The notes below the pieces were generated by a model that did no database searches, was not told the origin of the DNA, and worked only from the letters and a program-made list of their open reading frames with translations. This document shows, one piece after another, positions 24,850-30,060 of a DNA stretch of 30,946 nt. Numbering within the stretch: the stretch's first letter is position 1; each line of letters begins with the position of its first letter. The position numbers and the translations under genes are program-made. The DNA comes from a virus: positions 1-30,946 of IMG/VR virus record IMGVR_UViG_3300010389_000080; one strand, 5' to 3'.

Positions 24850-25464
24850 TTAGCTAAGCGGCTTAGCCGGAATGTTAAAAGTTTCCCAAGATGGCATTAC
24901 GGTTTCATGTTTGTTGTAGTGACCAACCTCGGCATAAGACCGCTCAGGGTCATCACTCAAAGGCATGAAGACCATTTGGCCGATCAGCAGTCCGGGCCAG
25001 ATGCCAACTCGATGCTTCTGACGGACGTTTTTCAATTCAAGTGTCAGCCTGCTGCCATGCCATCCGGGATCACAAAATCCAGCAAGCATGTGCTGAATGC
25101 CGGAGCGTGCGCGGCTTGATTTGAGTACAAACTGAGATGCAATAGCCGGACTGTCAGGCAGGTTAAAGATTTCCTCAGTTTCGGCAAGGATAAATTCACC
25201 CGGCGCCAGCCAATAAGGATCTTCCTTGGTATGGGTCTTAATGCTGTGCCGAATTAGCTCAGGCGTTTCAGCAACTTCAATCATGATGTTGTCGCCTAGT
25301 GCCACGTCATAACTGGCAGGATTTAGGCGATCAGGATTAAAGGGATGAATCAGAGCGTGAGACTGGCACAAAGCACGGATCTCAGAATCAGGCAGCAGCA
25401 CGGGGTTGACGGTATTATTGGGGTGCTCCAGCGGGTTGCCGCCCCTAGAGCGTGACCAACTCAC
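24850..25464 (-). CDS. dcd: dCTP deaminase / dUTPase-fold enzyme
   Basis: This is a protein of up to 204 residues from a GTG at 25464. A second GTG at 25401 would start at LLPDSEIRAL, the usual family N-terminus, and give 183 residues. Conserved blocks are RLNPASYDVALGD, the active-site segment KSSRARSGIQ, AGFCDPGWHGSRLTLELKN with the catalytic Glu in LEL, and GLLIGQMVF. The enzyme deaminates dCTP to dUTP, feeding dTTP supply, on the trimeric dUTPase fold. In phage it supports nucleotide pools during replication. A terminator follows. Assignment to dCTP deaminase rather than dUTPase is favoured by the SSRARSG and LEL motifs. Confidence 0.85.
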   Translation of the reverse strand: MSWSRSRGGNPLEHPNNTVNPVLLPDSEIRALCQSHALIHPFNPDRLNPASYDVALGDNIMIEVAETPELIRHSIKTHTKEDPYWLAPGEFILAETEEIFNLPDSPAIASQFVLKSSRARSGIQHMLAGFCDPGWHGSRLTLELKNVRQKHRVGIWPGLLIGQMVFMPLSDDPERSYAEVGHYNKHETVMPSWETFNIPAKPLS

Positions 25465-25476
25465 CCAACTGAGCTG

Positions 25477-25887
25477 ATGGAAGGCATTGTAGAGCTTTGG
25501 AAGCCCGTTGTCGGCTACGAAGGCTTGTATGAAGTTTCAGATCAAGGTCGTGTAAGAAGCCTTCCCGGCGAAAGGTGGAATGGTCAAGCGATGCATAAAT
25601 TTAAGGGCAGAATCCTAAAGCTGCATACTGGCGCAAACATCTACTACCACGTTGTGCTTTCAAAAAATGGAAAAGTAAAAACTTGCAAAGTGCATCAGCT
25701 TGTCGCAGATGCTTTTCTCCCTTCTTGTCCGGGTATTCAAGGCAAAACTCGAGGTTTGTATCATATTGATCACATAAACAATAGTCCAATCGACAATCGT
25801 GCGGTCAATCTTCAATGGTTAACGGGCAGAGAGAATGTATACGTTAAACCTAATAGAAACAGGGATAAGTATGGGCGTTTTCAGTAA
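25477..25887 (+). CDS. NUMOD4-HNH homing endonuclease
   Basis: This is a 136-residue protein. The NUMOD4 DNA-binding motif is ELWKPVVGYEGLYEVSDQGR with VRSL at residues 6-29. The HNH nuclease follows, with KVHQLVADAFLP and HIDHINNSPIDNRAVNLQWL (about 75-120). It is a free-standing selfish gene of the type common in phages. It lies on the opposite strand between the endolysin and dcd genes and overlaps the end of the endolysin gene by 7 bases. Sampled stretches are AT-richer than neighbours, fitting recent insertion. Confidence 0.88.
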   Translation: MEGIVELWKPVVGYEGLYEVSDQGRVRSLPGERWNGQAMHKFKGRILKLHTGANIYYHVVLSKNGKVKTCKVHQLVADAFLPSCPGIQGKTRGLYHIDHINNSPIDNRAVNLQWLTGRENVYVKPNRNRDKYGRFQ

Positions 25888-26927
25888 ACCCACTGTATTT
25901 TCGGTCTGCCAGGTCTAATTCCGCAATGAACAAAACCTTTTGGTGCGCCCAAGCCCAAGCTGTAAGGCCAGTGGACTTTGCACCACTCCTGCAGATCGTA
26001 AATGTTGACACCTTCAAGGTAAAAATCAACGGCGCCGGTATCAGGTGCGTCGTAAAGATGCTCGCTGCGTGATGCACCACCAACAGCAGCATTTACTTTG
26101 GGTGGCCTATAGCCGCTGGTAATAATGATTGGCTTGCCACCAAACGCAGCACGCGCACGTTCAAGGAAATTGCAAAGCACAACTGCCGTATCGCACTGAT
26201 GCTGTTTATCAAACCTTCTGGCTTCCTGATTTAACGCAAGCTCGCCATATTTAATGTGTGGCGTAACGCGAAAATCAAACGGTTTATCGGGCGTCAGTTT
26301 TACGTCATTGGTGATTGGCTTAACGCCATGGCAAAACAACTCAACCTCAGCGCGACGACGACGCACTAAACCCTCGAGGATCTTGCCATCGCCTTTGTTC
26401 CACCTCGGCAGCTCTTCCATCGCCACCTTGACCGGATCTTCGCCATTATTTAGCCGCTTACGTAACGTGCTTTCCTGCAGCGCACCAATTCCAACATTGA
26501 ACGTAAAGCTGATCAACGCGCACCGCTGATTATTTGTTAGATCAACTTTGATCCACGTATCAACAGCACGGGCAAAACGCTCAATGTCAGACAGCAGCAA
26601 CGCTTCTGCATCTGCTTGCGTGATCTTCAATCCAGCTTTGACGTTCGGGCCGGTATGGCCATAGCCGATTGTCCACACACCAGCAGGACACAAATAAGCC
26701 TCAAGCCTCAGGCCTTCAAACTTTTTGATCAACTCAACAGCTGGTTGCAGATCATCTTCTTGTTTGCCCGATTGGCTCCACGTCTTAAACCAACCCTGAT
26801 TACGACCAAGGATGTGCGGATTCGCTTTGTTGATCGCAGCCTCAAGCTCAGATATCGCCGCCATCTGATGCGGTAATGCCTTGTAATACCGAAACAGGTC
26901 AATCAGACGGATCTTGTTTTGCGTCAT
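25881..26927 (-). CDS. bifunctional endolysin: GH24 lysozyme plus M15-type peptidase
   Basis: This 348-residue protein has three parts. Residues 1-60 (IRLIDLFRYYKALPHQMAAI, WFKTWSQSGK) form a helical region, possibly for targeting. Residues 61-200 are a GH24 lysozyme with the catalytic pattern E71-x8-C80-x5-T86 inside KFEGLRLEAYLCPAGVWTIG; this E-C-T form is known for some phage lysozymes. Residues 210-348 are a peptidase M15-like domain with TSGYRPPKVNAAVGGASRSE, H290, D301 and H334 (GFVHCG) as likely zinc ligands. It would cut both glycan and peptide bonds of peptidoglycan. No signal peptide is seen, so release depends on the holin genes upstream. Confidence 0.88.
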   Translation of the reverse strand: MTQNKIRLIDLFRYYKALPHQMAAISELEAAINKANPHILGRNQGWFKTWSQSGKQEDDLQPAVELIKKFEGLRLEAYLCPAGVWTIGYGHTGPNVKAGLKITQADAEALLLSDIERFARAVDTWIKVDLTNNQRCALISFTFNVGIGALQESTLRKRLNNGEDPVKVAMEELPRWNKGDGKILEGLVRRRRAEVELFCHGVKPITNDVKLTPDKPFDFRVTPHIKYGELALNQEARRFDKQHQCDTAVVLCNFLERARAAFGGKPIIITSGYRPPKVNAAVGGASRSEHLYDAPDTGAVDFYLEGVNIYDLQEWCKVHWPYSLGLGAPKGFVHCGIRPGRPKIQWVY

Positions 26928-27165
26928 CGCTCCAAGGTGCGTGAATACTCATGGCGCCACCAAGCAAGCGGCTATCACCAGTCTGCAGCGCAGAATCAAT
27001 ATCGTGATGCACAATGACTGGCGGCTCTGTTGTGGGCGGCTGTGTGGCGTGCCACTCCTTTTCGGCTTGGTCAAGCTTGGCCGGCAATGTCAGCTCAAAC
27101 CACCACTGTTTAATGGCCTGTTCTAGACGACGTTGCCAGCCAGCCTTGCCAAACGCAATCAGAGC
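26899..27165 (-). CDS. frameshift extension of the holin-like gene (lysis cassette)
   Basis: This is an 88-codon frame with no ATG or GTG in its upstream coding part; a TTG at 27087 is the first conventional start. The sequence looks coding right up to the slippery site (ALIAFGKAGWQRRLEQAIKQ, WWFELTLPAKLDQAEKEW). The preceding 46-codon gene ends in GGA AAA AAG CTC TGA, and a -1 shift on A AAA AAG would enter this frame exactly, giving a fused protein of about 133 residues. The end overlaps the endolysin start by 29 bases. It could act as a lysis regulator. A missing A in the sequence would look the same. Confidence 0.65.
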   Translation of the reverse strand, partial: ALIAFGKAGWQRRLEQAIKQWWFELTLPAKLDQAEKEWHATQPPTTEPPVIVHHDIDSALQTGDSRLLGGAMSIHAPWSDDAKQDPSD

Positions 27166-27299
27166 TTTTTTCCCTTAATAGCCTTCAAGGCATGAAACAC
27201 AAGCTGAATGATGCTGTTGTCCTTCAGGGGGGACAGAGCGATCAACTCAGAAGCTGCAGCAACAACAATCCAAAAAGCAGGATGCTGAATGAAGTCCAT
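27159..27299 (-). CDS. 46-residue holin-like membrane protein with slippery 3' end
   Basis: This short frame from ATG 27299 (MDFIQHPAFWIVVAAASELI) has one or two hydrophobic segments (residues 7-23 and 30-38) and a basic end (KAIKGKKL). Very similar small membrane proteins sit next to endolysins in other phages; the holin role is inferred. The final codons hold the heptamer A AAA AAG, see the extension frame. Confidence 0.62.
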   Translation of the reverse strand: MDFIQHPAFWIVVAAASELIALSPLKDNSIIQLVFHALKAIKGKKL

Positions 27300-27329: not shown

Positions 27330-27584
27330 TCATTGCTTGTAACGGCCAATGGTCATTTCCAAATTTCTAACCCGAGTTTCAATATCCGATAACCGTTCCT
27401 TGCTGTCGTTTTTAAGTTCTTGAATATCAGCCGCCACCGTATTGACCGACTGATCCAGCTTGGCGACCTGCATAAAAAGACCAGCTAAGCCGACCACCGC
27501 AGCGGTCAACAGAGCCGGAATCATTTGGTTGAACGGACTTTCAGGTGGCTTAGCTGTAATTAGCGCCTCTTCGTGGTGCTCCAT
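27330..27584 (-). CDS. membrane-anchored coiled-coil protein, holin/antiholin candidate
   Basis: This is an 84-residue protein from ATG 27584. The N-terminal segment is cytosolic, a transmembrane helix lies at residues 20-38 (QMIPALLTAAVVGLAGLFMQ) and a C-terminal coiled coil follows (DQSVNTVAADIQELKNDSKE, IETRVRNLEMTIGRYK). The pattern suits a holin partner or spanin-like inner component. It is adjacent to the 46-residue membrane gene and the endolysin. Confidence 0.65.
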   Translation of the reverse strand: MEHHEEALITAKPPESPFNQMIPALLTAAVVGLAGLFMQVAKLDQSVNTVAADIQELKNDSKERLSDIETRVRNLEMTIGRYKQ

Positions 27585-27615
27585 TGCGAGGCATACAGCC
27601 GACCTTTTCCTAATG

Positions 27616-27753
27616 TTATCGCCCTTGGCCAACGTAAGGTTTTTTACCTCGGCGGCGAGGGCGGCTGTGCTGCCCGTAACCCTGGCTAGTAGTTTTGGGG
27701 CGACCAGCTTGGTGTTCCAGTCGCCCGGTGCCGGTTTTAGCTTTTACAGCCAT
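27616..27753 (-). CDS. 45-residue highly basic protein
   Basis: The start ATG shares a base with the stop of the preceding gene (TGATG). The protein begins MAVKAKTGTGRLEHQAGRPK and ends GKKPYVGQGR, rich in Lys, Arg, Gly and Gln. Similar short basic proteins are familiar to me from aquatic phages near tail and lysis genes, but no function is known to me. Coupling and composition support it as real. Confidence 0.6.
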   Translation of the reverse strand: MAVKAKTGTGRLEHQAGRPKTTSQGYGQHSRPRRRGKKPYVGQGR

Positions 27754-28477: not shown

Positions 28478-29500
28478 TTATGCGGGGGAGAAGGCAACGT
28501 CAAAGGAATCACTGGCAGGCAGCGTCGCAGGATCTGAATACTTAGTGCCGAAACCAGATGACCATGGATAGACACTGATATATGGGCTCGTGAAGTGAGT
28601 CACAGCTATGTCAGCACCATCAGGAGAGAAGGCAACGCTGAATGCAATGTCAGGAGGCAGCGTCGCAGGGTTTGAGTACTTCGTGCCAAAGCCTGATGAC
28701 CATGGATAAACGCTGATATATGGACTGGTGCTATGTGCAACAGCTATGTCAGCACCATTAGGCGAAAATTGAACGCCTCTACCAGTGCCAGTAGGTAACG
28801 TTGCAGGGTTTGAGTACTTCGTGCCAAAGCCTGATGACCATGGATACACACTGATATATGGACTGGTGCTATGTGCAACAGCTATGTCAGCACCATCAGG
28901 GGAAAATGCAACACCAGCGCCAAGCCCAGCAGGTAATGTCGCAGGATCTGAATACTTAGTACCGAAACCAGATGACCATGGATAGACATTGATATATGGG
29001 CTGCTGCCATATGCGACAGCTAGATCAGCACCATCAGGGGAAAATGCAACACCATTGCCAGTGCCAGTAGGTAATGTCGCAGGGTTTGAATACTTCGTAC
29101 CAAAACCTGACGACCATGGGTACGCATGAATATAAGGACTGATTGAACCAGCAGCAGCTATATCGGTACCATCAGGGGAGAAAGTAACGCTATAGAGTGA
29201 GGCAGAACCAGAGCCAGGCAAAGTAGATGGGTTTGAATACTTAGGACCAAAGCCTGAAGACCATGGATAGACGCTGATATATGGGCTGAGTTGGTGAGCG
29301 ACAGCTATGTCAGCACCATTAGGCGAAAATTGAACGCCTCTAGCAGTGCCAGTAGGTAACGTCGCAGGGTTTGAATACTTCGTACCAAAACCTGACGACC
29401 ATGGATAGACGCTGATATATGGACTGGTGCTATGAGCAACGGCCATATCCCCGCTATACGGCTCAACAGACTTACTACCAAGAAGCTTCTTGCCAAGCAT
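28478..29500 (-). CDS. seven-bladed beta-propeller protein (WD40-like repeats)
   Basis: This is a 340-residue protein from ATG 29500; an upstream frame to 29611 is likely a shadow. After about 15 residues it consists of seven repeats of 41-49 residues. Each repeat has the core GADIAVAHSTSPYISVYPWS, then SGFGTKYSNPATLP, a variable loop and ending (V/F)xFSP(D/N). The last repeat ends DVAFSPA, closing the ring. Most variation lies in the loop after PATLP. Such a protein likely binds a ligand on the cell surface or stabilises the fibre. It lies amid fibre genes. The near identity of blades implies recent duplication. Confidence 0.85.
   Translation of the reverse strand: MLGKKLLGSKSVEPYSGDMAVAHSTSPYISVYPWSSGFGTKYSNPATLPTGTARGVQFSPNGADIAVAHQLSPYISVYPWSSGFGPKYSNPSTLPGSGSASLYSVTFSPDGTDIAAAGSISPYIHAYPWSSGFGTKYSNPATLPTGTGNGVAFSPDGADLAVAYGSSPYINVYPWSSGFGTKYSDPATLPAGLGAGVAFSPDGADIAVAHSTSPYISVYPWSSGFGTKYSNPATLPTGTGRGVQFSPNGADIAVAHSTSPYISVYPWSSGFGTKYSNPATLPPDIAFSVAFSPDGADIAVTHFTSPYISVYPWSSGFGTKYSDPATLPASDSFDVAFSPA
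28483..29470 (-). repeat. seven tandem DNA repeats of about 123-147 bases encoding propeller blades
   Basis: Each unit codes for one blade and shares stretches such as GATGACCATGGATA and ACTGATATATGG with its neighbours on the plus strand. Such repeats can recombine and change copy number. Confidence 0.85.
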
Positions 29501-30060
29501 CACGCATCTCCCACGCGAGCGCCATACACTTGGCTGGCAACTTTCCAAAGCACGATGGCTGTGTAACCGCTGGTATTCAAGGTTGGAGCAGATCCGCCGT
29601 CTGTTTTCCACACCACACCAGAGCCGCCGAAGGTGGCGTCAGTCCAGGTCAATGTATATGCCGTGCCGTCATCCACCATTAGCGTGACGGCTTCGCCTGC
29701 TGCAAAATTGGTGGCTTTTGGTGTGCGACTGGCGCCAAGCGTGATCAACTGCACGCTGCCATTGCCAGGATCGATCTCAAAGGCGGCGCCATCACTGATG
29801 GTGTAAACATCCTCTTTGAGCGTGCCGATCAGTGCCGGATCGGTCAGCGTTTGAACCGCCGTAAAGGTCTGCGCAACATCAAGCTTTGCCGTGTCAGCAT
29901 CGTAGGCTTGCACACTACTGCCGATGTCAGCACTTTTTAGAGTAGTGGCGTCATACGCCTGCACCGTGCTGCCAATGTCACCACTGGCAAGCAGGTCATC
30001 CACCGTCACCGTTTGGGTGCTGGTGACAATGGAATCAACTTTTACGGATCCGTAAGCCAT
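29500..30060 (-). CDS. tail fibre-like protein
   Basis: This 186-residue protein begins [20 protein letters not shown]. Internal short repeats DIGSTVQAYDATTLKSA and DIGSSVQAYDADTAKLD form a likely trimeric stalk, followed by FTAVQTLTDPALIGTLKEDV and a beta-rich C-terminal domain (GSVQLITLGASRTPKATNFA). Such proteins sit at the tail tip or fibre. The ATG overlaps the stop of the longer fibre gene (TAATG), and its own stop touches the propeller start. Confidence 0.75.
   Translation of the reverse strand: MAYGSVKVDSIVTSTQTVTVDDLLASGDIGSTVQAYDATTLKSADIGSSVQAYDADTAKLDVAQTFTAVQTLTDPALIGTLKEDVYTISDGAAFEIDPGNGSVQLITLGASRTPKATNFAAGEAVTLMVDDGTAYTLTWTDATFGGSGVVWKTDGGSAPTLNTSGYTAIVLWKVASQVYGARVGDA

Follow-up and report, generated by a model that had tools for sequence, protein, structure and literature searches.

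Probable programmed −1 frameshifting in a small membrane-protein gene of cyanophages

Programmed frameshifts in DNA phages are known mainly from tail genes. In lambda and its relatives, a short gene for the tape measure chaperone carries a −1 slip close to its end, which yields a C-terminally extended form, gpGT, beside the short form, gpG; the gene adjoins the tape-measure gene in an arrangement conserved across phages (PMC5009743). The gene described here, which lies on the minus strand of a 30,946-nucleotide viral DNA analysed at its full length (IMG/VR record IMGVR_UViG_3300010389_000080; hereafter the window), very probably uses programmed −1 frameshifting to make two products that are related in the same manner, and its layout is likewise conserved across phages, but it encodes a membrane protein and adjoins an endolysin gene. 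Its slippery heptamer, A AAA AAG, and the tandem-slip geometry are those of E. coli dnaX, where by contrast the shift leads to the shorter product and is accompanied by an upstream Shine-Dalgarno element and a stem-loop (PMC5009743); in the window the shift would lead to the longer one.

Among lysis genes, the dual-start holins of lambda (S) and SPP1 (24.1/24.1* and 26/26*) also derive two related membrane proteins from one gene, possibly a holin and an antiholin (PMC6316719). The forms of these pairs differ at the N terminus by choice of start, whereas the forms in the window would differ at the C terminus by reading frame. PBSX XhlA/XhlB and SPP1 gp24.1/gp26 resemble the window in placing a coiled-coil-type protein and a small membrane protein by the endolysin, with no frameshift reported (PMC6316719) and no significant sequence match to the window proteins. 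Expression of the MS2 lysis gene L was once linked to frameshifting, which works there by way of termination within the coat gene followed by re-initiation and gives no lysis-protein fusion, unlike the window (PMC10885494; PMC5009743). For Streptomyces cluster BI2 phages, PMC9671017 mentions gene-finder frameshifts predicted in genes near holins in one sentence, which gives no site, conservation or family analysis. Among open-licence papers searched by title and passage for holins and frameshifting, tail and capsid cases were found and no holin frameshift fusion; the word “holin” is absent from the PRFect survey (PMC10885494) and from the available portion of the frameshifting review (PMC5009743). 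The use of frameshifting in a lysis gene thus appears not to have been described previously, and its conservation there would extend frameshifting to the release step.

The gene, its slip site and the conservation of both frames

The zero-frame product is the 46-aa holin-like protein MDFIQHPAFWIVVAAASELIALSPLKDNSIIQLVFHALKAIKGKKL (N domain), encoded by an ATG-initiated ORF running from 27299 to 27159 on the minus strand. As the earlier note on this DNA had read it, the gene ends GGA AAA AAG CTC TGA: the heptamer A AAA AAG (27165 to 27171, minus strand) is in phase (NNX XXY YYZ), and the stop TGA (27159 to 27161, minus strand) follows one codon later. The six A's occupy 27171-27166 and 27165 is a G, one position away from the 27165-27170 that had been given. 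Past the slip, the −1 frame (C domain, 26899 to 27165, minus strand; 88 codons and a stop) reads KK-ALIAFGKAGWQRRLEQAIKQWWFELTLPAKLDQAEKEWHATQ... and stays open up to TGA 26901-26899, so a −1 slip gives a 133-residue fusion beside the endolysin gene, just as had been claimed. The ORF check also bears out that the earliest ATG, GTG or TTG of this frame is the TTG at 27087, about 26 codons beyond the slip site. From the N domain, the C domain is reachable only via a −1 shift.

The end of the C domain overlaps the start (26927) of the endolysin gene by 29 nt. The endolysin (25881 to 26927, minus strand) matches Phage_lysozyme (PF00959, E 1e-46) and Peptidase_M15_3 (PF08291, E 2e-19); downstream of it lies a dCTP-deaminase-like gene (24850-25464, minus strand; phrog_1663, E 7e-45). 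Upstream of the frameshift gene, an 84-aa protein is encoded at 27330 to 27584 (minus strand), from an ATG inside a listed TTG ORF (27330-27632). The position is not that of gpG/gpGT: the gene sits between a tail-fibre-assembly gene and the endolysin gene, and a long ORF resembling a tape measure is found far away at 1-2190.

Synechococcus phages S-CBS1 and S-CBS3 have homologues, as do many IMG/VR contigs. A first HMM survey found 111 loci that have both domains; 81 are distinct, and in all of these the C domain lies in the −1 frame relative to the N domain, with no case of a shared frame. The slip codons are AAA-AAG in 64, CCA-AAG in 11 and CCA-AAA in six, and the zero-frame stop follows the last heptamer after 0, 1 or 3 codons. 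That the stop stays beside the slip suggests that both products matter. A widened search brought 195 distinct sets, of which 181 have the C domain; seven were counted as carriers by eye against the automatic end-motif rule (L041, L057, L081, L082, L097, L189 and L272). An in-phase A AAA AAG, C CCA AAG/A or G GGA AAG lies near the stop in 179 of these 181, although many are close kin and the counts are therefore not independent trials; the two exceptions carry weaker sites (A AAA AAC in L234, G AAA AAG in L237). None of the ten distinct relatives without a C domain has a heptamer; two further sets with the C domain and two without it are truncated at contig ends. A homologue with both domains in one uninterrupted frame, which the earlier note had named as evidence against a shift, is not found among the 181. 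As a control, an efficient in-phase heptamer occurs within the last ~5 codons of just one of 1,665 other ORFs from the same loci. A scan of bacterial genomes confirmed no relatives.

The third heptamer type, G GGA AAG, is carried by S-EIVl and its relatives. All three types are those reported to work best for −1 shifting in E. coli when stimulators are present (PMC4066793). On a tree, they need five changes, about four of them forced by supported branches, in a short alignment analysed by a quick method. The A run, whose conservation the earlier note had proposed to examine, is thus either kept or swapped for another efficient slippery heptamer.

Purifying selection, measured as pN/pS, acts on both frames. 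The N domain in its own frame has values of 0.08-0.24. Past the slip, the −1 frame is the constrained one: 0.12 against 1.29 for the zero frame in clade A (13 sequences, first 25 codons) and 0.15 against 2.17 in clade B (16 sequences, first 16 codons), stretches that hold no start codon in most sequences (the exceptions being a TTG in L007 and in L094). The corresponding values are 0.35 against 0.91 in clade E (16 sequences), where most have a GTG inside the tested stretch, and 0.17 against 1.47 in clade F (12 sequences), where some have a TTG inside it. Four relatives (L008, L070, L077 and L090) have no ATG, GTG or TTG across the whole second frame. Read in the −1 frame, the N-terminal region gives 2.3-7.3. 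Start codons upstream of the site in the −1 frame, such as a clade B TTG 35 codons upstream (pN/pS there 7.3), were rejected because this region lacks −1-frame selection. The suggestion that the −1 frame looks coding straight from the site agrees with these values, which indirectly indicate that it is translated from the slip site onward.

The layout is found in seven cultured phages, S-CBS1, S-CBS3, KBS-S-2A, S-EIVl, S-B28, WH11-B and 7B11-B, all of which infect Synechococcus. Three of them (S-B28, WH11-B and 7B11-B) are T7-like. Their −1 tail is shorter and includes the sequence SISLTSPW or SISLTAPF; its homology to the longer tail is proposed from its position and this end motif, and their gene sits between the tail-fibre and small-terminase genes. 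In GenBank, the second half is given an internal start in S-CBS1 and S-CBS3 and is omitted in S-B28, and the fusion has thereby been invisible to annotation.

The membrane protein, its tail and a possible role in lysis

By hydropathy, the 46-aa protein has one hydrophobic stretch at about residues 8-25, probably followed by an amphipathic helix and then by a basic end (KAIKGKKL). It thus has the anatomy of a holin, being small, with a membrane helix and a charged C terminus, and in at least 129 of 170 distinct loci the gene that follows it can be recognised as an endolysin gene. In T7, the holin gene 17.5 occupies the place between tail-fibre and small-terminase genes that the gene has in the T7-like phages. 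The description “holin-like” in the earlier note holds as far as size, the single hydrophobic helix and position are concerned; the protein matches no characterised holin family convincingly and finds only PHROGs of unknown function (phrog_22542, E 6e-28) and nothing above cut-off in Pfam or NCBIfam. On this evidence, the 46-aa protein is rather likely to be a small holin.

Another reading, which we consider somewhat improbable, accepts the frameshift and gives the small protein an accessory role in the membrane, such as tethering or regulating the endolysin or acting together with another holin. The lack of a characterised holin match suits this reading, as does the second membrane protein upstream: the 84-aa protein has one hydrophobic helix, probably forms a coiled coil and is probably a member of the same cassette, with weak family hits only (e.g. 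a Rz-like spanin at E 0.011 and a hemolysin at E 0.8). So do two relatives. In S-CBS2 the N–C pair does not adjoin the lysozyme gene, and in L097 (2833-3942) the −1 frame runs without a stop from the C domain into the endolysin (SIRYSWTMNQKPIRLIDLF...), so that ribosomes slipping there would produce an endolysin anchored in the membrane; this layout is seen in one contig only and could be an indel. Size, hydrophobic helix, endolysin neighbour and the place like that of T7 17.5 nevertheless fit a holin, and no further candidate for a holin turned up in the cassette.

If the small protein crosses the membrane once with its positive end inside, the tail would lie in the cytoplasm. Speculatively, the tailed form would join the short form in the membrane and set the onset of lysis, or it would tie the membrane assembly to the endolysin. 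It is conceivable, though doubtful, that the tailed form becomes part of the holin assembly and adjusts when it opens, at a dose fixed by the efficiency of the slip. The ratio of short to tailed holin might even serve as the lysis clock of these cyanophages in place of dual starts or a separate antiholin, an idea that we advance tentatively; if true, it would cover a large group of cyanophages that includes siphoviruses as well as T7-like podoviruses. A role of the tail would also offer a handle on lysis timing in phages of picocyanobacteria.

An improbable alternative is that the frameshift is real and serves mainly to carry ribosomes to the endolysin start by translational coupling, the fusion itself mattering little. 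The overlap of the C domain with the endolysin start, which is the rule in relatives, would suit such a role, and for MS2 a need for coat-gene frameshifting in lysis-gene expression has been proposed (PMC10885494). Against this, the tail is kept as a protein (pN/pS 0.12-0.40), in S-CBS2 it has a gene of its own that does not adjoin the lysozyme gene, and it precedes the terminase genes in the T7-like phages.

The predicted model of the tail consists of one long helix and short strands, with a pLDDT of 78, a pTM of 0.38 and low global confidence. Its structural neighbours with a traceable source are cyanophage proteins of unknown function, and neither sequence nor fold points to a relative of solved structure. 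Proteins of unknown function from the cyanomyoviruses P-RSM1 (L281, 1267-1662), S-SSM7 (L282, 1267-1653) and DSL-LC03 (L296, 979-1371) resemble the C domain, chiefly at its end; the DSL-LC03 gene follows one annotated as a tail tip lysozyme. The P-RSM1 protein belongs to phrog_6464. A direct profile link between the C domain and this family was not significant (probability 1.3%), and an intermediate link through S-CBS2 gp048 reached 63%, which makes a relationship with the cyanomyovirus proteins suggestive only.

Routes to the second domain

Some relatives reach the second domain without a slip site. In S-CBS2, gp049 is the N-domain relative, and the gene after it, gp048, starts at a GTG that overlaps the stop. 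The IMG/VR loci L289 and L290 have the same type of overlapping GTG; the S-CRES1-3 phages start the second gene at a separate ATG some 28-30 nt downstream. All of these lack the heptamer. Profile comparison of the S-CBS2/S-CRES two-gene lineage gives homology probabilities of 96% for the C domain and 97% for the N domain, so the same two domains stand in the same order as in the window, but as two genes with ordinary starts in place of one gene with a slippery site. The adjacent pairs suggest that the N and C domains are partners. An ordinary start for the second frame, which the earlier note had said would count against a shift, is therefore real in S-CBS2, S-CRES1-3 and L289/L290 and does not extend to the other relatives. 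Since the heptamer is missing exactly where separate starts exist, these cases support the role of the slip site elsewhere, and heptamer and separate start would be alternative routes to the same second domain. P60, S-CBP1 and S-SRP01 have the N domain alone; the tail that continues it in frame is a different one, and the heptamer is absent. The slip-site, two-gene and N-only families thus form natural controls in which the role of the tail is directly testable.

A further group (L117, L156, L163, L165, L166, L168, L172, L181, L190 and L192) is related to the uncultured podovirus S37-C6 (Oinezvirus); its N domain ends KPKKQA/T, and heptamer and C domain are both absent.

That the second domain is in general a separate protein made from an internal or near-cognate start, with the heptamer incidental, is very unlikely. 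The deposited annotation does give internal starts (TTG for S-CBS1 gp23, ATG for S-CBS3 gp22), a sister lineage, comprising S-CBS2 and S-CRES, truly uses separate starts, and some GTG, TTG or ATG lies within the C domain in many relatives. However, no start codon position in the C domain is conserved, four relatives have none in frame, −1-frame selection acts on codons upstream of the annotated internal starts, and heptamers present by accident would be neither retained nor exchanged for one another.

The frameshift itself would proceed as follows. Ribosomes staying in frame would terminate one codon past A AAA AAG, which yields the 46-aa membrane protein. In other ribosomes, the P- and A-site tRNAs would re-pair one base back, and the resulting 133-aa protein would carry the same membrane segment followed by a soluble, mainly helical tail of 88 aa. 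At the level of comparative sequence evidence, the site and its phase are established, as are a translated second frame and selection that keeps both products; we infer tandem tRNA slippage as the mechanism. No downstream hairpin common to all clades was found: the helices are clade-specific, and some of them lie too far away. Nor is an upstream Shine-Dalgarno element general, a weak signal being found only before C CCA sites. As no stimulator common to all clades was found, the efficiency of frameshifting could be low.

An explanation by errors in sequencing or assembly, by a pseudogene or by slippage during transcription of the A run is scarcely credible: although the site is a homopolymer of six A's, the identical layout recurs across 181 distinct sequences and seven cultured isolates, selection acts on both frames, and transcriptional slippage is disfavoured because C CCA AAG and G GGA AAG sites lack a long enough homopolymer, known bacterial cases having about nine A or T (PMC5009743) against the six in the window.

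Two observations concern the tail genes of the window. At 2230-2923 on the minus strand, upstream of the long tape-measure-like ORF, an ORF ending at 2423 is followed by an overlapping frame, TPKALEDQLKKDGYVRIQFF..., which is entered by a +1 or −2 shift and not by −1; the two look like a tail assembly chaperone pair with a frameshift of its own. In the tail-fibre region, a 377-aa ORF (28478-29611, minus strand) contains near-identical repeats (VAFSPDGADIAVAHSTSPYISVYPWSSGFGTKYSNPATLPTGTG) that resemble β-propeller blades.
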